This document shows, piece after piece, positions 5,984 through 20,500 of a DNA stretch of 64,000 bases (the first letter of the stretch is position 1; the number at the start of each line of letters is the position of its first letter). The stretch comes from Thioalkalivibrio nitratireducens DSM 14787 (GTDB lineage Bacteria > Pseudomonadota > Gammaproteobacteria > Ectothiorhodospirales > Ectothiorhodospiraceae): positions 3,872,501 to 3,936,500 of the forward strand of contig NC_019902.2 of the NCBI RefSeq assembly GCF_000321415.2. The letters are read 5' to 3'. The position numbers and the translations under genes were made by a program. The notes beneath the pieces were generated by a model. That model saw only the letters and a program-made list of their open reading frames with translations. It was not told where the DNA came from and searched no databases.

Positions 5984-6631
5984 TCAGTCCGGCGCCCGAT
6001 GGGCGCCGGTGGTCTGCCCTTCCGGGTCCGCGGCGTCGAGCCAGTCGAGCAGCAATCCGCGCAGATCGTCGACGCCTTTGCGCTTGAGCGCGGAAAAGGT
6101 CTGCAACGTGGCCTCGAGCCCGCGCGCCTCCAGCCCCCGGCGGGTCGCCTGCAGTTGCCGATCGGCCTCGCTCCGGGAGACCTTGTCGGCCTTGGTCAGC
6201 ACCACATGCAGCGTACGCGGCTGGCCCGCCAGCCAGTGCAGCAGGGTCTCGTCCAGCGGGGTCAGCGGGTGGCGGATGTCCATGATCAGCACCAGGCCCG
6301 CCAGGCTGCGACGCTCACGAAGGTAATCTCCGATCAGCCGGTCCCAGTGCGCGCGCTGCCTGGCGGAGACCTTTGCGTAGCCGTATCCGGGCAGATCCAC
6401 CAGGCGCCGCCGGCCTGTAGGCGGGAGCCGGAACACGTTGATCTCCTGTGTACGCCCAGGCGTACGGCCGACCCGGGCGAGCGCACGGCGTTCACAGAGC
6501 GCATTGAGCGCGCTGGACTTGCCGGCGTTGGAGCGGCCGGCGAACGCGATTTCCGCACCTGTATCCTCGGGCAACTGGTCCAGTTGGCCGGCGCCCAGCA
6601 CGAACTCGGCTTCACGAAACGGGTTACGCAT
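5984..6631 (-). CDS. engB: ribosome biogenesis GTPase EngB (YihA/YsxC)
   Basis: A 215-residue TRAFAC-class GTPase that assists assembly of the 50S subunit. G1 is GRSNAGKSS at residues 32-40, G3 is DLPGYGYAKV near residue 80, and G4 is TKADK near residue 147. The length is normal for the family. The start at 6631 (MRNPF) is the usual family start; the frame is open further upstream but overlaps the promoter of the divergent cytochrome gene. Position next to polA, with a small-RNA candidate between, matches enteric bacteria and Pseudomonas. Confidence 0.95.
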   Translation of the reverse strand: MRNPFREAEFVLGAGQLDQLPEDTGAEIAFAGRSNAGKSSALNALCERRALARVGRTPGRTQEINVFRLPPTGRRRLVDLPGYGYAKVSARQRAHWDRLIGDYLRERRSLAGLVLIMDIRHPLTPLDETLLHWLAGQPRTLHVVLTKADKVSRSEADRQLQATRRGLEARGLEATLQTFSALKRKGVDDLRGLLLDWLDAADPEGQTTGAHRAPD

Positions 6632-6667
6632 GATTGTCCTGGACCGGGCCCGCGCGGGCATGGGTCT

Positions 6668-6698
6668 TTGCCGGGGTGCGGCGCTTATGCTATATACT
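6668..6698 (+). promoter_or_regulatory. sigma-70-type promoter for cytochrome c4
   Basis: TTGCCG at 6668-6673 and TATATA at 6691-6696 are spaced by 17 bases; TATACT two bases later is an alternative -10. It lies in the gap between divergent engB and the cytochrome c4 gene, about 90 bases before the latter's start. It is unusually AT-rich for this GC-rich window. Confidence 0.55.
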
Positions 6699-6785
6699 GC
6701 GCCCCTTATTTTGATGTCCCTGGCCCCCGGGGCACAAGGTCCGGCACGACCGGCTCGTGGTTTCCAAGCAGGAGTTTCGTCGATC

Positions 6786-7403
6786 ATGAATTACATGCGT
6801 GCAAGCCTCCCCATGATCCTGTCTCTGGCGCTTCTGCTGCCGCTGTCGGCGCAGGCCGGGGATCCGGCGCGGGGCCAGGAACTGTCGCAGGCCTGCGCCG
6901 CCTGCCATGGCGCGGACGGCAACAGTGCGAACCCGGAATGGCCGAAGCTCGCCGGCCAGCATGCCGACTACATCCATAAGCAGCTGATGGATTACAAGAC
7001 CGGGCGCCGCGAGGACGCACTGATGGCCGGGCAGGTCGCGAACCTAGACGAACAGGACATGCGTGACCTCGGGGCCTTCTACGCCCGCCTGGAGATGTCC
7101 ACGGCAACCGCTGACGAGACGGTCGCCGAACGCGGCGAGCGGATCTACCGCGGCGGTATTCCCTCTGCCGGTGTCGCAGCATGCATCGCCTGCCACGGCG
7201 CCACCGGCAAGGGCAACCCGGCGGCGATGTTCCCGCGAGTGGCGGGCCAGCACGCGCAGTACAATGCCGACCAGCTGCATGATTTCCGCTCCGGGCAGCG
7301 GGCGAACGACAACGGCCGGATGATGCGCAACGTGGCGGCCCGGATGTCGGACGACGACATCCGGGCGGTGTCGGAATACATGGCCGGCCTGCGCGCTCGG
7401 TAG
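6786..7403 (+). CDS. dihaem cytochrome c4
   Basis: A 205-residue periplasmic dihaem cytochrome. The signal peptide ends at about residue 24 (LSAQA/GDP). Two homologous halves follow, each with a CxxCH haem site (CAACH at 37-41, CIACH at 133-137) and a later Met for the sixth ligand. KLAGQHADYIHKQL and RVAGQHAQYNADQL are the matching repeats that define cytochrome c4. It passes electrons to terminal oxidases. A sigma-70-type promoter precedes it and a terminator follows. Pseudomonas has a cytochrome c4 gene at the same place after engB. Confidence 0.95.
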   Translation: MNYMRASLPMILSLALLLPLSAQAGDPARGQELSQACAACHGADGNSANPEWPKLAGQHADYIHKQLMDYKTGRREDALMAGQVANLDEQDMRDLGAFYARLEMSTATADETVAERGERIYRGGIPSAGVAACIACHGATGKGNPAAMFPRVAGQHAQYNADQLHDFRSGQRANDNGRMMRNVAARMSDDDIRAVSEYMAGLRAR

Positions 7404-7431
7404 CTCACGACGAAGCCTGCGGCAATCGAAT

Positions 7432-7456
7432 AAGGTGGCCCTGGCCACCTTTTTTT
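7432..7456 (+). terminator. Rho-independent terminator after cytochrome c4
   Basis: AAGGTGGC (7432-7439), a four-base loop, GCCACCTT (7444-7451), then a T run to 7456. A perfect 8-bp stem. Confidence 0.85.
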
Positions 7457-7571
7457 GTAGACGCGCCTCCCGAGTGAACGAAGCGCGTGGCCGGCCGTCC
7501 AACACCGGACCCGGCATCGCCGCCCTCGAATCGTCGGCGGCAGACGGCAACACCCAACGGAGAGATGGACC

Positions 7572-8204
7572 ATGAATCGACGTCATTTCATTGGCACCCT
7601 GGTCGGAGGCAGCGCCCTGCTAGCATCAGGCGCCGGACTGACACGCGACTACGCCGCGGGCATCGACTACCGCGAACTGTTCCCGCGCGTAGACACCGGG
7701 CTGCCCGAAGGCCGGATCCAGGTCGTCGAGGTGTTCTGGTACGGCTGTCCCCACTGCTACCAGTTGCAGCCCCTGTTGCGGGACTGGAAGACCAACCTCC
7801 CCGATCATGTGGATCTGCAGCACTTGCCGGCGCCGTTCAACGACCTCTGGGCGCTGCATGCCCGGGTGTTCTTTGCGGCGCAGGCGCTCGACGTGCTCCC
7901 GGAGATCCACCAGCCGTTTTTCGAGGCGATCCACGGCCAGGGCCGCAACCTGCGCTCGGAGAGCGCGATCCTGCGTTTCGTCGATCAGCGGGGGCTCGAC
8001 GCCGATGCCTTCCGCGAGGCCATGCGTTCGCCCGAAACCGGCGAGGCCCTGCAGGATGCCGGCCTCAGGGTGCAGGCCTACCAGGTCGAGGGTACGCCGT
8101 CCATGGTCGTCGACGGGCGCGCGATGGTCTCCTCCGGCATGAGCGGAAGCCACCGGGAGATGCTGCGCGTGGTCGACCACCTGATCGGAGACTTCTCGGC
8201 CTGA
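7572..8204 (+). CDS. dsbA: thiol:disulfide interchange protein DsbA
   Basis: A 210-residue periplasmic dithiol oxidase. The N-terminus is a signal sequence with an RR pair (NRRHFIGTLVGGSALL). The thioredoxin active site is CPHC at residues 59-62 in VEVFWYGCPHCYQL, the same dipeptide as E. coli DsbA. The cis-proline loop is EGTPSMVV near residue 175. It introduces disulfides into exported proteins. Placement after cytochrome c4 matches Pseudomonas. Confidence 0.95.
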   Translation: MNRRHFIGTLVGGSALLASGAGLTRDYAAGIDYRELFPRVDTGLPEGRIQVVEVFWYGCPHCYQLQPLLRDWKTNLPDHVDLQHLPAPFNDLWALHARVFFAAQALDVLPEIHQPFFEAIHGQGRNLRSESAILRFVDQRGLDADAFREAMRSPETGEALQDAGLRVQAYQVEGTPSMVVDGRAMVSSGMSGSHREMLRVVDHLIGDFSA

Positions 8205-8473: not shown

Positions 8474-9349
8474 TTGTCACTCGTCAGCCTGGGACCCAGC
8501 GATGAAGGCCTCCCGTTGCGCAGCCCCCTCGAACGCCCCGAGGGAGCACGCAAGCGGCTGCGGCTGCTCAGCTTCAACGCTCAGGTCGGCATCCATTTCT
8601 CGCGACCGCACCACTACCTGACGCACAGCTGGAAACACCTGCTGCCCTTCGATGGGCGCATGACCAATCTCGACCGCGTCGCCCGGTTCATCTCGGCGTT
8701 CGACGTGGTCGGGCTGCAGGAGATGGATGCTGGCAGCCTGCGCAGCAGCTACGTCGACCTGACGGCGTACCTGTCGGAACGCGCCGGTTTCCCGCATGCC
8801 TATACGCGCGTGAACCGGGATCTCGGCACCTTTGCGAAACACGCGATGGGCCTGCTGACGCGCACCGAACCCGACCGGGTGGAAATGCACCGCCTTCCCG
8901 GTCCGATCCCGGGGCGCGGCGCGATCGAGGCGCGGTTCGGGCTCGAGAACGGCGAATCGCTGGTGCTGGTTCTGGTCCACCTGGCGCTGGGGCGGCGCGC
9001 CCGGCGTTCGCAACTCGACTACATCGCCGAACGCATCGCTCACGAGCCCCACGCGGTCGTGATGGGCGACTTCAACTGCCATCCCGAGAGCCGGGAATTG
9101 AAGCAGCTGGTGGCCCGCACCGGCCTGCTCGACCCGATGCCCTGTGCCGCCACCTATCCGTCCTGGGATCCGCAACGGGTATTCGACCATATCCTGTTGA
9201 CCCCCGATCTCAGCGTCAGCGACATGCGCGTGTATGACGTACAGCTGTCGGACCACCTGCCGGTCGGGATCGAGATCGAGCTGCCGGGGGCCGGACGCAT
9301 CATCGACGCCGATCAGGGCCACCCCCGCGTCGCGGCCACCAGCGCCTAG
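8474..9349 (+). CDS. endonuclease/exonuclease/phosphatase (EEP) family protein
   Basis: A 291-residue protein with the EEP fold. LRLLSFNAQVG holds the metal-site Asn, VVGLQEMD the metal-ligand Glu, VVMGDFNCHP the catalytic Asp-x-Asn, and SDHLPVGIEIEL the terminal Asp-His pair. Members cleave phosphodiesters in nucleic acids, lipids or signalling molecules, and the substrate is not predictable here. The start is TTG at 8474, chosen because GGAGG stands six bases before it (8463-8467). Pseudomonas has a related gene after dsbA. No signal peptide is seen. Confidence 0.85.
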   Translation: MSLVSLGPSDEGLPLRSPLERPEGARKRLRLLSFNAQVGIHFSRPHHYLTHSWKHLLPFDGRMTNLDRVARFISAFDVVGLQEMDAGSLRSSYVDLTAYLSERAGFPHAYTRVNRDLGTFAKHAMGLLTRTEPDRVEMHRLPGPIPGRGAIEARFGLENGESLVLVLVHLALGRRARRSQLDYIAERIAHEPHAVVMGDFNCHPESRELKQLVARTGLLDPMPCAATYPSWDPQRVFDHILLTPDLSVSDMRVYDVQLSDHLPVGIEIELPGAGRIIDADQGHPRVAATSA

Positions 9350-10132: not shown

Positions 10133-11029
10133 ATGACGGCAAGCAGCGGCGTGCGCCCGGTGATTTTCGGAGAGGTGCTGTTCGACAGTTTCCCGGACGG
10201 CAGCAACGTGCTCGGCGGCGCCCCGTTCAACGTCGCCTGGAACCTGCAACGGCTCGGCGCCGAGCCGTTGTTCGTCGGTGCAGTCGGCACCGACGAACTG
10301 GGCGAACGCGTGTGCGCGGCCATGGCCAGCGCAGGACTCGATCTGCGCGGGCTGCAAATCGTGCCCTACGCACCGACCGGACGCGTGCAGGTCACGCTGG
10401 AGGTCGGTGAGCCCTGTTACGACATCCTGCCGAACCAGGCCTACGACCGTGTCGATCCCGGCTCGCTGGCGGCATTCCTCACACAACCGCTGCCGATGCT
10501 CTACCACGGCAGCCTCGCGCTGCGCGCCGAACCGAGCCGCTCGGCCTGCAACTTGCTGGCCGGGCGCGCCGACCGCCGTTTCGTCGACGTGAACCTGCGC
10601 CCTCCATGGTACCAGGCGGACTCGGTGCTGGAGATGCTTCGCGGTGCCGACTACGTCAAGCTTAATCGCGACGAGCTCCGCGAACTGACGCGTGGCACGA
10701 ACGATGGGAACCGGGTCCGGGATCTAATCGAACGCGCGGAGATTCGCGAGGCGGTAGTCCTGACGTCCGGATCCGAGGGGGCGGGCATCCATACCAACGC
10801 CGGTGACCGGTTCGACGCTGGCGCGCCTGCGGTCACCGATCTGCGTGACCCGGTGGGTGCCGGCGATGCCTTCGCCAGCGTGACCATCCTCGGCATCCTC
10901 GAGGCGTGGCCGTGGGAGACCACGCTGGCACGGGCGCTCGATTTCGCCGCCCGCGTCTGCACGCTGCAGGGTGCAACCACGACCGACCCCTCGTTCTACG
11001 CCGCCGCACGGGTGGGCTGGGCCGACTAG
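10133..11029 (+). CDS. PfkB family carbohydrate kinase (fructokinase-like)
   Basis: A 298-residue ribokinase/PfkB-type sugar kinase. The N-terminal family signature is GGAPFNVAWNLQRLG (about residues 29-43). The C-terminal signature with the catalytic Asp is DPVGAGDAFAS (about residues 240-250), preceded by the ATP-site segment. Fructokinases of this branch phosphorylate fructose at C6, and in haloalkaliphiles sucrose metabolism is one likely context, but no sucrose genes are seen. It is convergent with the amidotransferase gene downstream. Substrate assignment is tentative. Confidence 0.85.
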   Translation: MTASSGVRPVIFGEVLFDSFPDGSNVLGGAPFNVAWNLQRLGAEPLFVGAVGTDELGERVCAAMASAGLDLRGLQIVPYAPTGRVQVTLEVGEPCYDILPNQAYDRVDPGSLAAFLTQPLPMLYHGSLALRAEPSRSACNLLAGRADRRFVDVNLRPPWYQADSVLEMLRGADYVKLNRDELRELTRGTNDGNRVRDLIERAEIREAVVLTSGSEGAGIHTNAGDRFDAGAPAVTDLRDPVGAGDAFASVTILGILEAWPWETTLARALDFAARVCTLQGATTTDPSFYAAARVGWAD

Positions 11030-11075: not shown

Positions 11076-13094
11076 TCACGGGCGCCAGCCGAGGGCTTCG
11101 GCCTTGCGGCGGGCCATGCGCGGGATGTCGGCGGCGACGAAGTGCTCGTGCAGCACCTGGACGCTGATCATGTGGTTGATCACCGCGTCGAGCTGAACCT
11201 GGGTCGCCACCGGGGTGTCCTCGGCCTCATGTAGCTCGAACAGGCGTGCCACACCCTCCGGATCCAGCAGCCCGGCCGCCTCGATCGCTTCCGTCGACAG
11301 GTACTGATCCGCCAGCGCCTTCATCGCCGCCCATTTCTTCGGGTCGGTATGCGCCGGCGGGGCCATGAACGCGAACTTCTCGCGCTCGTAGAGCACCCGC
11401 GGCAGCAGACCCTTCATCGCCTCGCGCAGCACGTATTTCTCGGTACGGCCCTTGATGCGCATCGACGGCGGCAGCTGCGCCGCGAATTCGGCCAGGTGAT
11501 GGTCGAGAAACGGCGGGCGGGCCTCCATCGAGTTGGCCATGTCGACCCGGTCGCCGCCCCAGGTCAGGATCTGCCCCTCGAGCATGGTCTTGATCCAGAC
11601 GTACTGGGCCTTGTCGAGGGGATGCCGGCCTTCGAGCATTTCCGCATCGAGCGCGCCGGCGATCGCGGCGCCGGGCGCGTAGCCGGCGAGCGCTGCGCGC
11701 CGCCCCGGAGCCAGCAGCCCCGGAACGTGATCGGCGGCGGCCAGCCAGGGCTGCAGGCAGGACGGGGTGAACCCGACCAGCCGGGTCAGCGCCGGGTCGT
11801 CGAGTTCGTTCTCGGCCAGCATCGCGCCGCTGAACAGCTTGTTGCTCTCGGCCAGGAGCTGTTCCCAGGACGCGCGTTCCGCCGGCGGCAGGGTGTCGAG
11901 CCCGTGCAGGAACATGTCGCGCCGGAACGCCGGATAACCGGCGAACAGCTCGTCCGAGCCCTCGCCGGTGACCACGACCTTGTAACCCGCCTCGTTCACG
12001 TGCCGGCTCATCAGCAGCTTCGCGACACCCAGCGTGTTGTAGATGGATCGCTCCGTGTGCCACAGCGTCTCGACCAGGTTGTCGTACAGGTGGTCGGCCT
12101 GCAGGGTCATGATGTCCTGGTCCGCTCCTACGCTCTCGGCCATCTCGCGAGCGATCGCGGTCTCGTCGTAGGCGACGTCGTCGAAGCCGATGGTGAACGC
12201 CTTGACCGGGCTCTGCTGACTGGCTGCCGCCAGCCCGAGCGTGATGCAGGAGTCGATCCCGCCGGACAGATAACAGGCGACCGGGACATCGGCCTCGAGC
12301 CGCAGCTGCACCGCCTCCATCAGATGCTCGCGTACGCCCTCGATCCAGTATTCCTCGTCGGTGTCGTCGTGCTCCGGGCGCTCGGCAGCCAGCGGGAAGT
12401 CCATGTCCCAGTACTTCTCCTGACGCACTTTCAGCTTCCCGTGGGCGCGTTCGACGATCACCATGTGGCCGGGCTTCACCTGGTGTACGCCCTCGAACGC
12501 GGTGGTCCCAGGCACGATGGTCTGCATCAACTGGTGGAACAGCCCGGTGTCCGAGAATCGGCGCGGCACATCCGGGTGTGCGAACAGCACCTTCAGCTCC
12601 GAGCCGAACACGAACGCGCCGTTCGCCTCGGTGAAATACAGCGGCTTGACGCCGAAGCGGTCGCGGATCAGCACCAGCCGGTCGTGCTCGCGGTCGTACA
12701 GCGAGATCGCGAACTCGCCGCGGAAGTGCGGGATCGCATCCTCCAGCCCCACGCGCCGGTAGAGATGCATCACCATTTCCGAATCGCTCTTGGTGCGGAA
12801 CTGGACGCCGCGCAGCGTCAGGTCGGCACGGATGCGCTTGTAGTCGTACAGCTCGCCGTTGACCGCGGTCATGATGCTGTTGTCGGGCATCACGAACGGC
12901 TGGCGGCCCCGGTTCTCGTCGAGGTCGATGATCGACAGCCGGGCATGAGAAAAGCCGACGCCGCGATCCTGCTGCACCCGATAGCCGAAGCCGTCGGGGC
13001 CGCGGTGGTACTGGATCGCGGCCATCGCGACCAGCGTTTCGGGATCAACCCGGCGCTCCGGGTCGGCATGAAAGATTCCTGCGATGCCACACAT
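11076..13094 (-). CDS. AsnB-type glutamine amidotransferase (asparagine synthase family), putative carboxamide-forming enzyme
   Basis: A 672-residue class II glutamine amidotransferase. Cys2 (MCGIAG) is the glutaminase nucleophile, and RGPDG and NGELYD complete that site. The synthetase half has the ATP pyrophosphatase loop SGGIDS (near residue 270) and GEGSDELFAGY. It is about 120 residues longer than E. coli AsnB. Family chemistry is ATP-dependent conversion of a carboxylate to an amide with glutamine nitrogen. AsnB relatives also amidate other substrates, for example AsnO in N-acetylglutaminylglutamine amide synthesis. Last gene of a minus-strand cluster with a carbamoyltransferase, carbamoylase and amidase, so the substrate may be an N-carbamoyl amino acid rather than aspartate. 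AGGAGA stands before the ATG. Confidence 0.85.
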   Translation of the reverse strand: MCGIAGIFHADPERRVDPETLVAMAAIQYHRGPDGFGYRVQQDRGVGFSHARLSIIDLDENRGRQPFVMPDNSIMTAVNGELYDYKRIRADLTLRGVQFRTKSDSEMVMHLYRRVGLEDAIPHFRGEFAISLYDREHDRLVLIRDRFGVKPLYFTEANGAFVFGSELKVLFAHPDVPRRFSDTGLFHQLMQTIVPGTTAFEGVHQVKPGHMVIVERAHGKLKVRQEKYWDMDFPLAAERPEHDDTDEEYWIEGVREHLMEAVQLRLEADVPVACYLSGGIDSCITLGLAAASQQSPVKAFTIGFDDVAYDETAIAREMAESVGADQDIMTLQADHLYDNLVETLWHTERSIYNTLGVAKLLMSRHVNEAGYKVVVTGEGSDELFAGYPAFRRDMFLHGLDTLPPAERASWEQLLAESNKLFSGAMLAENELDDPALTRLVGFTPSCLQPWLAAADHVPGLLAPGRRAALAGYAPGAAIAGALDAEMLEGRHPLDKAQYVWIKTMLEGQILTWGGDRVDMANSMEARPPFLDHHLAEFAAQLPPSMRIKGRTEKYVLREAMKGLLPRVLYEREKFAFMAPPAHTDPKKWAAMKALADQYLSTEAIEAAGLLDPEGVARLFELHEAEDTPVATQVQLDAVINHMISVQVLHEHFVAADIPRMARRKAEALGWRP

Positions 13095-13327
13095 AGGCTG
13101 TCTCCTGAAGTTTTGGGGTGGTTCAGCCGCAGCGCGTCACGAATCGTCAGCAGCGCGCGGTTGCCCCGATCGGGTTCTCATCGCGGGCGTACGGGCGAAT
13201 GGCGTCGGTCCGGCACCGGGTGTCGTCAGCAGGGATGTTGCCGGCAAGCCTGCAAAGGTGCATTCACGGCGTCCCGCTGCCGCGGCCGACGCCATCCCAT
13301 CTGCCCCCGAGTCTCCCACGGCCCCTG

Positions 13328-14404
13328 TCACTGTTCCGGGGTGTCCATCACGGCGCTGATCCGGCGCACCACCGAGGTCAGCAGCGCCATACGCACGAAC
13401 ACCGCGCCGCGGGCCTGGGCGAAGTACCAGTTGTGCGGGGTATCATCGAGATCGGTGGCGAGCTCGTCCCCGCGCGCCAGCGGGTGCAGAATGATCGCAC
13501 CCGGTTTCAGCGGCGAGTTCCGGGTCAAGTGCAGGCCGGTGCCCAACGATTCGAAAGTGTCGCCGACCCAGGCGATTGCGTTGATGTACACCACGTCGAG
13601 TTCCGGCAGCACCGGGTCGAGTTGGTCCACCACGCGCAGCACCAGCCCCGCGGCCTCGAGTTCCTCGCGCTGGCCGGAGTCGAAATTCTCGTGCTCTCGG
13701 GAGATGATCACAACCTCGCGGATCGCCTCCGGGAACCGGCCGAGCATCAGCAACAGGCTGCGCACCGTGCGCATGCGCGAGGGCACGCCAATGATGCCGA
13801 CCCGGATTCGCGCCTGCAGGTCGACATGCCCCTGGAACAGTTCCGGTCGCCACTTCGCCAGCGTGTACACGTCGGCCAGCGCTTGGGTCGGATGCTCGTC
13901 GATGCCGTTACCGGCGTTCACGATCGGGATGCGGAGCCCCTCGAGCATCTGGTAGACCGCCTGATCCTCGCTGCTGCGCAACACGATGACGTCGCCGTAA
14001 TTATTGAACATCTCGGCGATGTCGACCAGCGACTCGCCCTTGGCCATGCCGGTGCTTTTCGGGTCGGTGATCGACATGATCGCGCCGCCCAGCCGGTGCC
14101 AGGCGCTCTCGAACGAGAGCCGCGTGCGCGTGGACGGTTCGTAGAAGGCGCTGATCAGGATCTTGCCCGTCAGCGGCAGATGCATCAGCGCCGGTGTCGC
14201 CTCGTACTGCGCAGCCAGCCGGAACAGCTGGATCAGCGTCGCACGGTCGAACTGCCGGCTGGACACCACGTGCCGGGCCGCGATCTCGAGCAGGGGCTCG
14301 GGGTCTTCCGGCAGCGCATCGACCAACGCCTTCGGCCGCTCGATGCCGGCAGTGCCGTCCTTCGGTTGCAGCGGACGCTGCAGCTGTTCTTCCAGGTGGG
14401 TCAC
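13328..14404 (-). CDS. aspartate transcarbamoylase homologue with altered substrate pocket
   Basis: A 358-residue protein aligning along its length with PyrB. Carbamoyl-phosphate residues are kept: STRTR at 91-95, an AKGES loop with Lys122, and HPTQ at 171-174. The aspartate side is changed. Where E. coli ATCase has TRVQ (Arg229, Gln231) this protein has NAIA at 275-278, and HPLPR becomes HPLAR at 307-311. The Arg corresponding to E. coli Arg167 (MRTVRSL) remains. It should carbamoylate an alpha-amino group, but of a substrate lacking the second carboxylate. The start is GTG 14404, with GAGAGG upstream. A 124-base gap separates it from the isochorismatase gene. Automatic annotation would call it pyrB; I think that is wrong. 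Confidence 0.85.
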   Translation of the reverse strand: MTHLEEQLQRPLQPKDGTAGIERPKALVDALPEDPEPLLEIAARHVVSSRQFDRATLIQLFRLAAQYEATPALMHLPLTGKILISAFYEPSTRTRLSFESAWHRLGGAIMSITDPKSTGMAKGESLVDIAEMFNNYGDVIVLRSSEDQAVYQMLEGLRIPIVNAGNGIDEHPTQALADVYTLAKWRPELFQGHVDLQARIRVGIIGVPSRMRTVRSLLLMLGRFPEAIREVVIISREHENFDSGQREELEAAGLVLRVVDQLDPVLPELDVVYINAIAWVGDTFESLGTGLHLTRNSPLKPGAIILHPLARGDELATDLDDTPHNWYFAQARGAVFVRMALLTSVVRRISAVMDTPEQ

Positions 14405-14528
14405 GCGGGGCCTCTCGTGCTGTCTGGACGGAAACGGTCGTGGTGCCCGCGGGCTTCGGGCCGGGATCGGCCCGGCGGGCCCGCCCGGGCTGACGGACCG
14501 GCAGGCATCGTGCTTGCGCGTGTGCTGC

Positions 14529-15266
14529 TCACGAGGCCTGCCGTGCTCGGTTGATCTCCGCGATCGCCTCGGCAGCACTCATCACCCGCGCATACCGGTC
14601 CCGGATGGTGGTGATGGTCGCCTGCTGCAGTTCCGGCGTCACCGTGGTACAGCCGTCCTCGATCAGGGTCACGTAGAACCCCAGGTCGCAGGCGTCGCGT
14701 ACCGCGGTGGAGACACACTCGTTGGTGTAGACCCCGACCATGAACAGCGAGCTGATGTCGAGATTGCGCAGCAGGTAGTGCAGGTTGGTGGAATTGAAGA
14801 CGCCGCTGGCGGTCTTGTTCAGCAAGATTTCGTCACCGACCGGGGCCACCAACTCGACGAACTCGGCTTCCTTCGAGCCGGGCGCGGCATGCAGGTTCAG
14901 CCGCTTGTGCCCCGGGCTGCGGTCCCGCCCGTCACGTGTCATCGACTGGATCCGGGTATGGATCACCTCGAGCCCCCGTGCCCGGAACGCATCCTGGAGC
15001 TTACGTACGTTCGGCAGCACCTCGGTCTCGAGCTTGTGGAAGTAGTACTCCTGTGCCGCCAGCGGAACCCCCGAGGCAGCGGCATCGGCGAACACGCCGT
15101 GCCCGCGAGCGGCATCGAGGTACTGCAGGTCGATGCACAACAGTGCGACATGGTGGCGCGCAAGCTCCTCGCGCAGCAGGCGGGTCGAGATCAGGCTGCC
15201 GCGGTACTGATCGCGCAGTGGATCGAGTGCGTCGAAATCGGTGATCCTGGTGATCTTGTCGGTCAT
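14529..15266 (-). CDS. isochorismatase-family cysteine hydrolase (putative amidase)
   Basis: A 245-residue protein with the catalytic triad of the cysteine-hydrolase branch: Asp in ALLCIDLQYLD (about residue 45), Lys in LLNKTASGVF (about residue 150) and Cys in GVYTNECVSTAVRDACDLGF (about residue 182). Enzymes of this branch hydrolyse amides such as N-carbamoylsarcosine, nicotinamide or biuret. Twelve bases separate it from the carbamoylase gene upstream, so the two are co-transcribed. In this cluster it could remove a terminal amide or a carbamoyl group. The exact substrate is unknown. Confidence 0.85.
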   Translation of the reverse strand: MTDKITRITDFDALDPLRDQYRGSLISTRLLREELARHHVALLCIDLQYLDAARGHGVFADAAASGVPLAAQEYYFHKLETEVLPNVRKLQDAFRARGLEVIHTRIQSMTRDGRDRSPGHKRLNLHAAPGSKEAEFVELVAPVGDEILLNKTASGVFNSTNLHYLLRNLDISSLFMVGVYTNECVSTAVRDACDLGFYVTLIEDGCTTVTPELQQATITTIRDRYARVMSAAEAIAEINRARQAS

Positions 15267-15278
15267 GGGATCCTCCCG

Positions 15279-16520
15279 TCAGTCTCGAGCCGCCAGCGCC
15301 AGCACGCTGCGCAGCATCAGGTTAGCGCCGGCCTCGATGTCTTCCCAGTTCGTCCACTCGCCCGCGGAATGACTGCGGCCCTCGATACTGGGTACGAAAA
15401 TCATCCCGGTGCGCGCGACCGAAGTCATGCTCTGAGCATCATGGGCCGCCCCGCTGGCCATGCACAGGTACGACTGCCCCATCGCCTCCGCCTCGCGGCT
15501 GATCAGTTCGACCAACCCCGGATCACATTTCGCCGGCGGAATCTCGGAGAGCACGTCGAACTCGAACATCAGGTCGCGGCGGCGCGCAATACTGGAGAGC
15601 GTCCGCCGGCAGGCATCCGACAGCGCCTTCAGTACCCGGTCGTCGGTGTCGCGAACCTCCAGCGAGAAGGTCGCGAGGCCGGGAATCGTGTTCGCGGCGC
15701 CCGGTTTCAGCTCCACCCGCCCGATGGTCGCCCGACTGTTCGGACCGCCGTGCTCCTCGAGGATGCGGTGGATCTCGCCGCCGAATTCGGCCAGACCCTG
15801 GAACGCGTCGATGCGCATGTCCATCGGCGTGGTGCCGGCATGGTTGGCCTGGCCCTTCAGGCGCACCTCCCACTTGAACAGGCCGGTGATCGCCTCAACC
15901 ACGCCAATGCCGATCCGCCGCCGGTCCAACACCGGTCCCTGCTCGATGTGCAGTTCGAGGAATGCGTGGATGCTGTTCGGGTCGCGGCGAGCGCCCAGCG
16001 CCTCGTTCGCGTCCAGGCCCCAGCCGGCCATGGCATCCACCAGCGTGGTCCCCTCGAGATCCCGGGCCCCGTGGATCCGTTCCGGTGTCAGCTGCCCGGC
16101 CATCGCCTGGGATCCGAACAGCCCCCCGAATCGCCCCTCCTCGTCGGTGAAGTCGATGACCTCGAGAGGGAAACGCAGCGGGATGGCGCGTTCCTTCACC
16201 GTACGCAGGACCTCGAGCCCGACCAGCACCCCGAGCGCCCCGTCCAGCGGTCCACCGCCGGGCACGGTGTCCAGATGGGATCCCATCACTACCGCCGGGC
16301 GCTCACCATCGAACTCCAGCCGTCCATGAAGGTTTGCTGCACCATCCTGATGGACTTCGAGGCCGGCCACCGCGAGGCGTTGCCGGAACCAGTCCCGGCC
16401 CTGCCGATCGCACTCGGTGAACGCACGGCGATTGAGGCCGAATTCCGTGTCGCGGCCGACTTGTGCCAGATCCATCACGTCCTGCCGCAGCCGCTCCATG
16501 TTCACTCGTATTTCGGACAT
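15279..16520 (-). CDS. M20-family N-carbamoyl-L-amino-acid hydrolase / allantoate amidohydrolase
   Basis: A 413-residue zinc hydrolase of the hydantoinase/carbamoylase branch of M20. Metal and catalytic motifs are visible: GSHLDTVPGGGPLDGALGVL, DFTDEEGRFGG, LELHIEQGPVL, the dimer-domain GQANHAGTTPM, and GAAHDAQ near the end. Such enzymes split N-carbamoyl-L-amino acids to amino acid, CO2 and ammonia, or open allantoate. No allantoin genes are near, whereas a carbamoyltransferase is in the same cluster, so an N-carbamoyl amino acid is the favoured substrate. It lies 52 bases after the MarR gene. Confidence 0.88.
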   Translation of the reverse strand: MSEIRVNMERLRQDVMDLAQVGRDTEFGLNRRAFTECDRQGRDWFRQRLAVAGLEVHQDGAANLHGRLEFDGERPAVVMGSHLDTVPGGGPLDGALGVLVGLEVLRTVKERAIPLRFPLEVIDFTDEEGRFGGLFGSQAMAGQLTPERIHGARDLEGTTLVDAMAGWGLDANEALGARRDPNSIHAFLELHIEQGPVLDRRRIGIGVVEAITGLFKWEVRLKGQANHAGTTPMDMRIDAFQGLAEFGGEIHRILEEHGGPNSRATIGRVELKPGAANTIPGLATFSLEVRDTDDRVLKALSDACRRTLSSIARRRDLMFEFDVLSEIPPAKCDPGLVELISREAEAMGQSYLCMASGAAHDAQSMTSVARTGMIFVPSIEGRSHSAGEWTNWEDIEAGANLMLRSVLALAARD

Positions 16521-16572
16521 CGTGATTCCCGTTTACGGATTTCTGAACCGGCGGCGTACTGCGTTCGGCGAG

Positions 16573-17082
16573 TCATGCGCCGCCATCGAAGGGTTGCAGG
16601 CCTGCGGTCGGTTCGGCGGACGCCATGCGCCCTACCAGGACGTGCAGAGAGGCGTCGAGTGCCTCCAGCTCAACCGGATCCAGCGCGTGCAGCGCACGGT
16701 TCAACTCGCCCTGGGGTGCAGCCGGCGCCCGGTCCAGCAGTGCCTCCCCCGCCGGGGTGACGAACAGGCGCACGATACGCTGATCGCGCTTGCGCCGCAG
16801 GCGTTCGACCAACCCGGCATGTTCCAGCTTGTCCAGCAGGTTCGATGTGGTCGACGGATGCACCGATAGACGCTGCGAGAGATCGCTGACATTCAGCCCG
16901 GGGCAGCCTCGCACTTCCCACAGCGCCCACAGTTGCGCCGCACTGATGCCGCAGGAACGTTGCACGCTGCGGGAATGGCCCTGCAACGCGCGGATGATCA
17001 CCCGCAACTGCCGGATGACCGAACGCACGGTCTCGGTCCGGTCGGCATCGGGCGTCGGCGGAGTGCTACGAGCTCTGGACAT
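16573..17082 (-). CDS. MarR family transcriptional regulator
   Basis: A 169-residue winged-helix regulator. The DNA-binding part includes LSQRLSVHPSTTSNLLDKLEHAGLVERLR (recognition helix and start of wing, about residues 67-96; quoted region spans the motif) followed by RDQRIVRLFVTPAG, the wing. It is first in the minus-strand cluster and divergent from a porin gene across a 553-base gap that contains a 26-bp palindrome. MarR proteins usually repress their own and adjacent operons until a small ligand binds. EctR, a MarR-type protein, controls ectoine genes in halotolerant methylotrophs, a precedent for osmolyte control. The ligand is unknown. Confidence 0.88.
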   Translation of the reverse strand: MSRARSTPPTPDADRTETVRSVIRQLRVIIRALQGHSRSVQRSCGISAAQLWALWEVRGCPGLNVSDLSQRLSVHPSTTSNLLDKLEHAGLVERLRRKRDQRIVRLFVTPAGEALLDRAPAAPQGELNRALHALDPVELEALDASLHVLVGRMASAEPTAGLQPFDGGA

Positions 17083-17635
17083 TACGATACCACCCCCGAC
17101 TCAAGCCTCGTGCCTCACATCCGGAGGCTTGCAGCGCACCGCGTGCTCACGGTGGCACGCGCCGGCGATGGTGCTGCAAGGGGTCAAGGCATGCATGGCT
17201 CGACGGTGATTCGATTCCCTGAACGTTGGGTACGGTCGGCGGCTGGCCTTCGCCCGGCAGAACCTTCCTTACCTGACGACAGATGTCCCTGCCGGGAGTT
17301 CGGGCCGGGCGCCCCGGGAGAGGTTCGACCGGTTCCGGGCAGCCGCCCGCCGGGTGTCGGTCTGTTGTCCAGGAGACGGACCGGTATTTTTGTGCAAAAA
17401 TACCGGCCGTGCAACCCCGCAGCCAACCTCAGGGCCACGGGCCGTGCGAGCATTGGCCGGAGGATCACGCCTCCATGCCCGACCTGGGGCCTGTCGCAAC
17501 GGGATGCGTGACGCCCTGGCGCCGGGGGGAAACGGAGTGCCGTGTAGATCGCCCGCGCAATGCGCGGAGGCGTGCTGGGGGCACCGCCTGCGCGCAACAA
17601 GATGGCGTTTGGAACCGAACCAGAGGGAAAACCGA
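17083..17635. other. divergent control region between MarR gene and porin, with 26-bp palindrome
   Basis: No gene supported in 553 bases. The main feature is an interrupted palindrome at 17381-17406, CCGGTATTTTTG / CAAAAATACCGG around a two-base centre, perfect over 12 bp each side. Because both flanking genes point away from it, a terminator is not needed here and an operator is more likely. The remainder is GC-rich and shows no clear -35/-10 pair. Confidence 0.55.
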
Positions 17636-18700
17636 ATGAACAAGAAGATCCTCGCGGCGCTGGCCGCCGCTTCGCTGTTTCCCCCGGGCATGGCAGGTGC
17701 CGACAACGGCGCCGGCGGCCCCAACTTCAGCTTCTATGGGTCGCTGCGAATCCACAGCGAGCACGTACGCCCCGACAACCGGGACGAGGCGGCCGGCGGC
17801 CTGGACTCGTACAGCGCCCTGCGCGACGCCTATTCGCGGCTGGGGGTCACCGCAGACTGGGCGCTGAACCCCGGGTTGGAGGTCTTCGGTCAGCTGGAAC
17901 TGCCGGTCGATACGGCCAACCTGAAGATCCAGGATCCGTACGATCAGGGTGGCTTCGGGCGCTCCGACGAGGAAAACGTGCGGGTCGCACTGATCGGATT
18001 GCGGAGCGACTTCGGCACGCTGCAGTTCGGCCAGCAGTGGATGCCGTACTACAACGCGATCTCCTACCCGGTCGACATGTTCAGTACCTATTACAGCGGG
18101 TTTGCAACCTACGCGGTCTTTCGGGTTCGCGACACCGTGGCATATTACAGCCCGGATTTCCACGGGTTGTCGTTTGCCGCCTCGTATTCGGACAAGCGCG
18201 GAAACGTCAAGTCGACGTCGCGCATCGACGACAGCCGCACACAGCTGACCGCAACCTACTCGTTCGGAGACACCACCGTGTCGGCCGGGCTCGACGACCG
18301 GGGCAGCCCGGTCGGTGACCGGGACCGGATCTGGGGCCTGGCCGCGGCCCACCAGCTCGGGGACCTCTACCTCGCGGCCAAGTACGAACGCTTCGATTCC
18401 GACAACGACAGCCCCGGGGCCTTCAATCGCGACGGCAATGAAGCCTTCAACGTCTTCGCCAGTTACACGCGCGACAAGAACACGTTCAAGATCATGCTCG
18501 CCGATGTCGAGAATTACGGCGATACCGTCGTCCATCTGGGCGTCGATCATCGTGTCAACGATGCCCTGACCCTGTTCGCCGAGTATTACTACGAGGAAAG
18601 CACCGCAGCGATCACCACCAAGCGCGGTGGCCTCGGCGATTTTCCGGCAGGCGCGAACGGCGGACAGGTGCTCGCGGCAGGGCTTCGCTACGACTTCTGA
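17636..18700 (+). CDS. outer-membrane porin
   Basis: A 354-residue beta-barrel porin of the Gram-negative porin group. It has a signal peptide ending at GMAGA (about residue 21), strand-like alternating segments throughout (for example NFSFYGSLRIHSEHV, LRSDFGTLQFGQQ) and the typical terminal aromatic residue (LRYDF). The FGTLQFGQQ segment is characteristic. It allows diffusion of small hydrophilic solutes. The ATG at 17636 precedes the signal peptide directly. It is divergent from the MarR cluster and followed by a BCCT carrier. Confidence 0.88.
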   Translation: MNKKILAALAAASLFPPGMAGADNGAGGPNFSFYGSLRIHSEHVRPDNRDEAAGGLDSYSALRDAYSRLGVTADWALNPGLEVFGQLELPVDTANLKIQDPYDQGGFGRSDEENVRVALIGLRSDFGTLQFGQQWMPYYNAISYPVDMFSTYYSGFATYAVFRVRDTVAYYSPDFHGLSFAASYSDKRGNVKSTSRIDDSRTQLTATYSFGDTTVSAGLDDRGSPVGDRDRIWGLAAAHQLGDLYLAAKYERFDSDNDSPGAFNRDGNEAFNVFASYTRDKNTFKIMLADVENYGDTVVHLGVDHRVNDALTLFAEYYYEESTAAITTKRGGLGDFPAGANGGQVLAAGLRYDF

Positions 18701-18741: not shown

Positions 18742-18883
18742 CGGCTCCGGCAGGCACGGGCGCCCTTTAACCCGTGCTTGAGCCACGCACGCCGGCGGTC
18801 GCTTCCGGACGGCGAGGCGCGCGCGGCCGCAGCACGCGGTGGCTTCGGGTGCCCCGTTGAACCCAGACAAGGGAGGATTCCCG

Positions 18884-20500
18884 GTGAACGACGACAAGAT
18901 CGAAACCAAGGTCGAGGAAATCGCGCAACGCTACGAGACCGACTACGAGATCGGCCAGCAGAACATCAACCCGCTGGGCCTGGACTTGCACAATCCGGTG
19001 TTCGTGGTCAGCTCGCTGCTGATCCTGGTGTTCGTGGTGGGATCGCTGATCTTCCCCGAGCAGGCCAATGAAGCCCTCGGCGCGACCCGCGTCTGGATCG
19101 GCGACACCTTCGACTGGCTGTTCCTCTCGGCCGGGAACTTATTCGTGCTCTTCTGCCTGGCGCTGATCGTGCTCCCTGTAGGCAGCATCCGCATCGGCGG
19201 TGCCGACGCGACCCCGGACTACTCGGTGCTGTCGTGGTTCGCGATGCTGTTCGCCGCGGGCATGGGCATCGGGCTGATGTTCTGGAGTGTCGCCGAACCC
19301 GTTGCGTACTTCACCGAATGGTTCGGCACGCCGCTGAACATCGAGGGGGGCACCGAGGAGGCGAAGGCGGCCGCCCTTGGCGCGACGATGTACCACTGGG
19401 GCCTGCATCCCTGGGCGATCTACGCGGTCGTCGGCCTGTCCCTGGCGTTTTTCGCGTACAACAAGGGCCTGCCGCTGACGATCCGCTCGACGTTCTACCC
19501 GCTGCTGGGCGACCGCGTCTGGGGGCCGTTTGGTCACGTGATCGATACCCTCGCGGTACTGGCGACGATGTTCGGGCTGGCCACCTCGCTGGGGCTCGGC
19601 GCCCAGCAGGCCGCGGGAGGCCTGGAATTCCTGTTCGGCATCGACGGCGGGCTGAACACGCAAATCGCGATCATCGTGGTGGTCACGGTGATCGCGCTGA
19701 TCTCGGTGATCCGCGGAATCGACGGCGGCGTGAAGGTGCTGAGCAACATCAACCTGAGCATGGCCCTGCTGCTCCTGATCTTCGTGATGATCGCCGGGGC
19801 TTTCGTCGCGTTCCTTTCGAATATCGGGACGACCGTTTCCGCCTATGCGCAGTACATGCTGCCGCTCAGCAATCCCGTCGGCCGCGAGGACGACACGTTC
19901 TATCACGGCTGGACCATCTTCTTCTGGGCCTGGTGGATCTCCTGGTCGCCGTTCGTCGGCATGTTCATCGCGCGGATCTCCCGGGGCCGCACGGTACGCC
20001 AGTTCGTGACCGCGGTGTTGCTGGTACCGACGGTGGTCACGATCATCTGGATGAGCGCCTTCGGGGGCAGCGGGATCGATCAGGCCTCGGCCGGAATCGG
20101 CGCATTGGCCGACGGGATCAGCGACTCGTCTCTGGCCCTGTTCCAGATGCTCGAGAACCTGCCGTTCACGGCCATCACCTCGTTCCTCGCGATCGTGCTG
20201 GTGCTGATCTTCTTCGTGACCTCGTCCGACTCCGGCTCGCTGGTCATCGACAGCATCACCTCCGGGGGCAAAACCGACTCACCCCAGTCACAGCGCATCT
20301 TCTGGGCGACCATCGAGGGCCTCGTGGCCGGTGTCCTGCTGGCGGTGGGCGGCGTCGCGGCGCTGCAGGCGCTGCAGGCCGGCGCGGTGAGCACCGGCCT
20401 GCCGTTCGTGGTGGTGCTGCTGCTGATGTGCGTGAGCCTGGCGATCGGTCTGCACCACGAGCGGATCCTGTTGAAGTTCGCGCCCGACAAGGCGGCTTGA
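18884..20500 (+). CDS. BCCT family transporter (betaine/choline/carnitine type)
   Basis: A 538-residue protein with twelve predicted membrane helices. The family tryptophan box is present in helix 8: FFWAWWISWSPFVGMFIARI followed by SRGRTVRQF. GMGIGLMFWSVAEP is another BCCT signature. The GxG pattern suggests sodium-coupled uptake of betaine-like osmolytes. The N-terminus (about 50 residues, acidic) is cytosolic; the C-terminal tail is short, so an osmosensing tail like that of BetP is reduced. The start is GTG 18884 with GGGAGG seven bases upstream; an upstream in-frame start is less likely. Confidence 0.92.
   Translation: MNDDKIETKVEEIAQRYETDYEIGQQNINPLGLDLHNPVFVVSSLLILVFVVGSLIFPEQANEALGATRVWIGDTFDWLFLSAGNLFVLFCLALIVLPVGSIRIGGADATPDYSVLSWFAMLFAAGMGIGLMFWSVAEPVAYFTEWFGTPLNIEGGTEEAKAAALGATMYHWGLHPWAIYAVVGLSLAFFAYNKGLPLTIRSTFYPLLGDRVWGPFGHVIDTLAVLATMFGLATSLGLGAQQAAGGLEFLFGIDGGLNTQIAIIVVVTVIALISVIRGIDGGVKVLSNINLSMALLLLIFVMIAGAFVAFLSNIGTTVSAYAQYMLPLSNPVGREDDTFYHGWTIFFWAWWISWSPFVGMFIARISRGRTVRQFVTAVLLVPTVVTIIWMSAFGGSGIDQASAGIGALADGISDSSLALFQMLENLPFTAITSFLAIVLVLIFFVTSSDSGSLVIDSITSGGKTDSPQSQRIFWATIEGLVAGVLLAVGGVAALQALQAGAVSTGLPFVVVLLLMCVSLAIGLHHERILLKFAPDKAA

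Follow-up and report, generated by a model that had tools for sequence, protein, structure and literature searches.

In a 64,000-nucleotide stretch of the Thioalkalivibrio nitratireducens DSM 14787 genome (hereafter the window; positions 3,872,501 to 3,936,500 of NC_019902.2), we find a cluster of five genes in which a transcarbamoylase (TCase) that is not the pyrimidine enzyme PyrB is paired with an AsnB-type amidotransferase (AsnB) of a clade of its own. The product of these two enzymes is very probably a carbamoylated amino acid amide, and we lean towards its being N-alpha-carbamoyl-L-glutamine 1-amide (CGA), in the role of an osmolyte. On the wider proposal we are evenly divided: that CGA, far from being peculiar to a single purple bacterium, is made by a modular pathway widespread among haloalkaliphiles and marine bacteria (Ectothiorhodospirales, Kangiella, Idiomarina and relatives, and metagenome-assembled genomes (MAGs) of spirochaetes), which consists of a non-pyrimidine transcarbamoylase and a dedicated amidotransferase, mostly with a sodium symporter of its own and a recycling pair. 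The cluster comprises:

16573..17082, minus strand: MarR-family regulator, heading the five genes (PF01047, E 2.2e-14)
15279..16520, minus strand: M20 N-carbamoyl-L-amino-acid amidohydrolase (M20; TIGR01879, 362.5 bits against a cut-off of 204)
14529..15266, minus strand: isochorismatase-superfamily cysteine amidase (ISC; PF00857, E 7e-32)
13328..14404, minus strand: transcarbamoylase of an unnamed subfamily (TCase; PF02729 and PF00185)
11076..13094, minus strand: AsnB-type glutamine amidotransferase (AsnB; PF00733 and GATase_7)

An earlier note on this DNA had read five same-strand genes of these families here; all are present on the minus strand, from 17082 to 11076, and the family matches hold. 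Gaps of 52, 12, 124 and 233 bp separate them in the order MarR, M20, ISC, TCase and AsnB. The TCase start, a GTG near 14404, was picked by alignment, the open frame extending to 14578. The genome itself is a single contig of 4.0 Mb.

TCase scored 186.9 bits against the PyrB model TIGR00670, below the cut-off of 236.95, and 82.7 bits against the ornithine carbamoyltransferase model TIGR00658 (cut-off 280.85), compared to 310.5 bits for the product of the separate pyrB gene of the same genome, which is above the TIGR00670 cut-off, and 398.4 bits for its own ArgF. Residues were counted over the best 80 TCase loci from a scan of GTDB species genomes (the named loci), the denominators being the loci in which tblastn aligned the given position, and the TCase alignment comprised 53 cluster-type sequences, leaving out rows with in-frame stops (which over-long ends had brought in), partial rows and those of a second group described below. 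The PSTRT motif, the AKGE loop (K84 loop), VLR (R105) and R212, equivalent to R167 of aspartate transcarbamoylase (ATCase), are kept in 80/80 relatives, and the glutamine of HPTQ in 79/80. By contrast, ATCase R229 is replaced by A, S, T or K and Q231 by A, S or V in 80/80. We take R229 and Q231 to be the ATCase ligands of the aspartate side chain, and the roles given here to the other TCase residues are likewise assumed. In alignment with solved ATCases, TCase has N-A-I-A-W in place of the aspartate motif T-R-I-Q-K; the genome's own PyrB retains both the arginine and the glutamine (LRLQRERM). A structural model of TCase (23 sequences; pLDDT 78.9, pTM 0.82) has the ATCase fold, with Z scores of 31.6-34.8 over 278-318 residues for the 50 matches listed.

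TCase thus resembles PyrB in its fold (Z up to 34.8) and its carbamoyl-phosphate site, but differs from it in lacking R229 and Q231 and in having invariant YIN.I.W and HPLARG motifs. The separate pyrB, the loss of R229 and Q231 and the score below the PyrB cut-off together indicate that TCase is not PyrB. Of the outcomes that the earlier note had named as counting against its reading, our observations point neither to a TCase that uses aspartate and complements a pyrB mutant nor to a cluster mainly of non-halophiles with ureides as nitrogen sources. Given the kept carbamoyl-phosphate site and R167 and the lost R229 and Q231, TCase should still act on carbamoyl phosphate and accommodate an alpha-carboxylate but no acidic side chain, which fits an acceptor with an alpha-carboxylate and a non-acidic side chain. 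No TCase match at E 1e-50 was found on the plasmids searched. A second TCase-like group (L118-L122, from the class sample described below) is 36-41% identical in the alignment and 38-44% by genome search. None of its five loci shows the cluster, and the STRT motif is replaced in the three that were aligned (L118, L120 and L121); because of the broken carbamoyl-phosphate motif and the absence of the cluster, the group, which may be a non-catalytic relative, was kept out of the TCase counts.

AsnB belongs to its superfamily by sequence, with the class II glutaminase Cys2 in 77/77 relatives and the SGGIDS ATP-pyrophosphatase site in 75/75. Its scores fall below the cut-offs of both narrower models, that for the N-acetylglutaminylglutamine amide (NAGGN) amidotransferase AsnO (TIGR03104, 307.9 bits against 570.1) and that for asparagine synthase B (NF006949, 263.6 bits against 499), and above that of the broad TIGR01536 (414 against 267), which the NAGGN-type paralogue of the genome also passes. 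In a tree of 54 chosen rows (about every second cluster AsnB and six others, 11 of 12 picked NAGGN-type loci, and 12 others), in which several outgroup rows are long-branched, cluster AsnB forms a clade of its own with 100/100 support, the unlinked copy of Thiorhodospira sibirica lying inside and the NAGGN amidotransferases outside. Moreover, asparaginyl-tRNA synthetase (AsnRS) is above its family cut-off in 0/47 genomes of the order Ectothiorhodospirales, compared to 7/14 control genomes, so translation can probably do without AsnB as a source of free asparagine; the absence suggests that in this order asparagine is made on tRNA.

The window's genome has just one other AsnB-type gene, at C1:1151791-1153563 (L237:5792-7564), which is of the NAGGN type (901 bits against the cut-off of 570) and is flanked by a LysR-type gene on one side and a peroxiredoxin gene (261 bits to PrxU) on the other. 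Inspection by eye of the 14 kb fetched around it revealed neither Ngg nor an M42 peptidase, and the window's MarR had no real match among the ORFs near it (best E 0.31). Glutathione amide synthesis is one guess for what this gene serves.

Conservation of the cluster was examined first within the order, in a sample of 47 genomes identical to that of the family. TCase was found in 41/47, including all 38 good genomes, the six without a match having a completeness of 58-80%. The five genes form one same-strand group in 37 of the 41 (the window and 36/40 fetched loci), which is far beyond chance. As for the remaining four, L065 lacks MarR only, L009 and L070 lie on 3.2-kb contigs, and in T. sibirica (L061) TCase stands alone at its locus. 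The MarR gene is a dispensable part of the set: it accompanies the operon in 37/41 loci of the order, and outside the order it is often unrecognised or lies at the operon's far side.

In the class at large (369 genomes; TCase subfamily at ≥ 62% identity, AsnB subfamily at ≥ 70%), the carriers of the two subfamilies coincide completely: 23 genomes from 15 families have both, and the other 346 have neither. Uncorrected for kinship and linkage, the probability of such a match for unrelated draws is ~5e-37. The next best AsnB match in the sample is at 39% identity; four further genomes with only the 38-44% TCase-like protein were left uncounted, and one of the 23 has both kinds. T. sibirica carries TCase, AsnB (78%), a sodium:solute symporter (SSS, 77%) and ISC (74%) at four separate places, and since these genes are scattered yet retained, something besides linkage must keep the set together. 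Carriers among the best 80 loci are Thioalkalivibrio, Ectothiorhodospira, Thiohalobacter, Thiohalophilus, Kangiella, Aliikangiella, Pleionea, Idiomarina, Pseudidiomarina and Aliidiomarina, together with MAGs that include Leptospiraceae and Spirochaetaceae; the named isolates belong to genera that we take to be saline or marine.

The named loci also reveal how the set is divided into modules. AsnB lies on the same strand within 5.5 kb of TCase in 66 of the 67 uncut loci. M20 and ISC are present with AsnB in 52 of these, 43 with SSS and nine without it. Twelve others have SSS and AsnB without a same-strand M20 or ISC (in four, two from Kangiella, one from Ketobacter and one from a Pseudomonadales record, an M20 at 49-50% identity lies on the opposite strand), two have SSS and AsnB with a divergent M20, and the last is T. 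sibirica. Relatives of Idiomarina keep symporter, TCase and AsnB without ISC. T. sibirica apart, 14 genomes have no ISC at the locus, and in all ten of these that were searched an ISC of at least 50% identity is absent genome-wide. With the hydrolases optional and a core of TCase and AsnB mostly accompanied by a carrier, the pattern points to a synthesis core to which degradation is an add-on, the reverse of what a catabolic set would give.

SSS is linked to the cluster in 25/41 loci of the order and, in the loci read, lies between ISC and TCase. It is usually accompanied by a small membrane protein (~130-180 aa, often encoded between MarR and M20), labelled FN3 by look only. The examples of this protein that were scanned matched no Pfam or NCBIfam family. 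Most loci fetched from the class at large share the order FN3-M20-ISC-SSS-TCase-AsnB. Both genes are absent from the 64-kb window, and the same genome carries the pair elsewhere, at C1 ~204.8-206.8 kb (L297:5798-6316 and 6372-7823). Likewise, an SSS at 66-77% identity was found in 7/7 searched genomes whose locus is without one. SSS and the small membrane protein are part of the system in many relatives. We presume the family of this symporter to include osmolyte carriers such as OpuE. The small protein goes with SSS whether the latter is near the cluster or apart from it.

Both hydrolases have intact catalytic residues. The nearest solved structure to M20 is the L-N-carbamoylase 3n5f (268 bits), and H82, D93, E128, H191, H384 and R290 are kept in 62/62 homologues, one M20 having an in-frame stop; we take these to be the metal ligands and, for R290, the arginine that binds the free carboxylate in this family. 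M20 thereby resembles the L-N-carbamoylases and ErtE (N-carbamyl-L-glutamate amidohydrolase), to whose model NF058540 it scores 398.4 bits, but it remains below the ErtE cut-off of 520 and differs in being linked to an amidotransferase and a transcarbamoylase. In ISC, D46 is kept in 56/56 and K151 and C184 in 57/57 homologues, presumably the positions of the Asp-Lys-Cys catalytic triad. Its nearest solved relatives include the cysteine hydrolase 6xix, the biuret hydrolase 6xjm and the N-carbamoylsarcosine amidohydrolase 1nba. ISC shares the triad positions with these isochorismatase-superfamily amidases and RutB, but scores only 68.8 bits against the biuret hydrolase model NF050097 (cut-off 370) and 51 against RutB (cut-off 378).

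CGA was reportedly described as a compatible solute by Galinski and Oren in 1991. Reviews name Ectothiorhodospira marismortui as its source species (PMC1224877; PMC3857566), and the CGA paper is cited in PMC5231179. The genome of the type strain, DSM 4180T (FOUO00000000 in Table 1 of PMC8877833), carries MarR-M20-ISC-TCase-AsnB in the same order as the window (L145, NZ_FOUO01000006.1), at identities of 59, 73, 73, 77 and 82%, respectively. The earlier note had proposed to search genomes for co-occurrence of the five genes and to compare the outcome with strains known to contain the solute: the genes are together in 37/41 genomes of the order, and the type strain of the species named by the reviews carries the full cluster. 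It had also held that CGA was without described genes, and our literature search, which had most subscription journals outside its reach, found no paper tying genes to CGA.

A known system of similar design is the NAGGN operon of Pseudomonas aeruginosa (asnO-ngg-peptidase, PA3459-PA3461), in which an AsnB-type enzyme forms the terminal amide and which is repressed by the MarR-family protein PA3458, a regulator with an influence on growth when cells are stressed by salt or sucrose (PMC8070244). Common to the operon and our cluster are a hydrolase in the operon and, if our proposal is right, a terminal amide formed by an AsnB-type enzyme, control by MarR and a glutamine-derived neutral product with masked ends. 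The cluster differs in being without the Ngg acetyltransferase/ligase, so that the cap would be a carbamoyl group from the transcarbamoylase and not an acetyl group, and its AsnB falls in a separate clade at 308 bits against the TIGR03104 cut-off of 570.

In the pathway that we propose, TCase would transfer the carbamoyl group of carbamoyl phosphate to the alpha-amino nitrogen of L-glutamine, giving N-carbamoyl-glutamine, whose alpha-carboxylate AsnB would activate with ATP and amidate with the ammonia of a second glutamine, yielding CGA as an uncharged, nitrogen-rich solute. For recycling, ISC would first hydrolyse the terminal amide, exposing the carboxylate, and M20 would then release glutamine, CO2 and ammonia; ISC is placed before M20 because the latter keeps R290 (62/62), which would bind a free carboxylate. 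The symporter and its small membrane partner would serve in uptake or retention of the solute, and MarR, by analogy with PA3458, may act as a repressor of the cluster, keeping the operon silent until salt rises. Of the division of labour suggested earlier, with synthesis by TCase and AsnB and recycling by M20 and ISC, the co-occurrence of the genes, the intact catalytic residues and the separability of the degradation pair speak in favour; we infer glutamine as the acceptor, and likewise the sequence of reactions, what ISC and M20 cleave, what the symporter carries and how the operon is regulated. If true, the proposal would add another route to neutral solutes (a carbamoyl cap plus an amide), assign a function to a transcarbamoylase subfamily readily mistaken for aspartate carbamoyltransferase, and bring in a nitrogen-rich solute with a possible part in coupling salt stress to the need for nitrogen in soda lakes and in the sea. 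With a two-enzyme candidate suited to expression in E. coli, the question of the CGA genes becomes directly testable.

Several observations weigh against CGA as an osmolyte being the product. The sequence cannot tell glutamine from other neutral acceptors, and M20 is above the cut-off of an NCBIfam subfamily named allantoate amidohydrolase (523 against 399). Ectoine synthase, as a marker of salt, is unassociated with TCase (2/23 compared to 50/346, p 0.76) and was dropped as a proxy for halophily on that account. Every one of the 38 good genomes in the order has TCase, though CGA is reported from one organism only and as a minor solute there, according to a 2013 review, which adds that Raman analysis of E. 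marismortui extracts gave no CGA-like signal, no CGA reference spectrum having existed (PMC3857566). For Thioalkalivibrio, a genome paper mentions glycine betaine and sucrose (PMC3368412), and the table of salt-induced nitrogen genes for Thioalkalivibrio versutus, which covers part of the 90 induced genes, holds no cluster gene (PMC9062515); word searches of the accessible text of PMC8092127 and PMC5744179 likewise turned up no cluster gene by name. T. versutus responds to high salt with a strong rise of nitrate uptake, nitrite reduction, amt and glnA, but not of betaine genes (PMC9062515), a response that fits a nitrogen-rich solute, and for which other explanations exist. As CGA is known from one organism, and betaine and sucrose from Thioalkalivibrio, either CGA is made under conditions that have not been sampled or the product differs.

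The latter would be the case if the acceptor of TCase were some other amino acid, neutral or at least non-acidic, such as asparagine, with AsnB amidating the carbamoylated product, which we think unlikely. The residues that argue against aspartate-type binding do not select among neutral acceptors, and the cluster is widespread for a compound reported from one species; yet the sole species with a known carbamoylated amide has the full cluster, CGA suits both enzymes, and our literature searches, which used CGA names only, brought up no similar compound. A carbamoylated amide that serves as a nitrogen store, signal or metabolite and not as an osmolyte is, in our view, decidedly improbable. CGA would carry four nitrogens per six carbons and, in the part of the T. 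versutus data available, salt and nitrogen are linked (PMC9062515), but not to the cluster genes; the reviews, for their part, list CGA among compatible solutes (PMC1224877; PMC3857566). The saline habitats that we assume for the named isolates, and the osmolyte-carrier family to which we assign the symporter, also speak for an osmolyte.

We give very little credence to a function in catabolism alone, in which ureides or N-carbamoyl amino acids would be consumed and TCase would run in reverse to give carbamoyl phosphate. M20 and ISC are indeed hydrolases, and the NCBIfam name of the M20 subfamily is that of allantoate amidohydrolase, but an ATP-dependent amidotransferase accompanies TCase in all 23 class carriers, and although losses from a purely catabolic set should fall on the amidotransferase, it is the hydrolases that are missing from the Idiomarina-type loci. 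Very improbable as well is a housekeeping role, with TCase as a second aspartate transcarbamoylase and AsnB as the cell's asparagine synthetase, even though the closest solved relatives are ATCases and AsnB-superfamily enzymes, AsnB passes TIGR01536 (as does the NAGGN-type paralogue) and the genome has just one other AsnB-type gene, given the separate pyrB, the lost ligands of the aspartate side chain, scores below the TIGR00670 and NF006949 cut-offs, AsnRS over its cut-off nowhere in the order, and the strict co-occurrence of TCase and AsnB.

Two further genes adjoin the cluster on the MarR side and are peripheral to it:

17632..18700 (start approximate), plus strand: porin (PF13609, E 6.3e-34)
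18839..20500, plus strand: BCCT carrier, probably for betaine-type uptake (TIGR00842, 468 bits against 407)

The earlier suggestion that MarR, porin and BCCT carrier together fit osmotic control is upheld in part: MarR accompanies the operon in most loci of the order, dispensable as it is, but the porin and the carrier cannot be counted as partners, each being near the cluster in just 7/41 loci of the order within the fetched flanks. Beyond AsnB lie a PfkB-family sugar kinase gene (10133-11029) and an ORF (8474-9349), as they do in many Ectothiorhodospira and Thioalkalivibrio loci.

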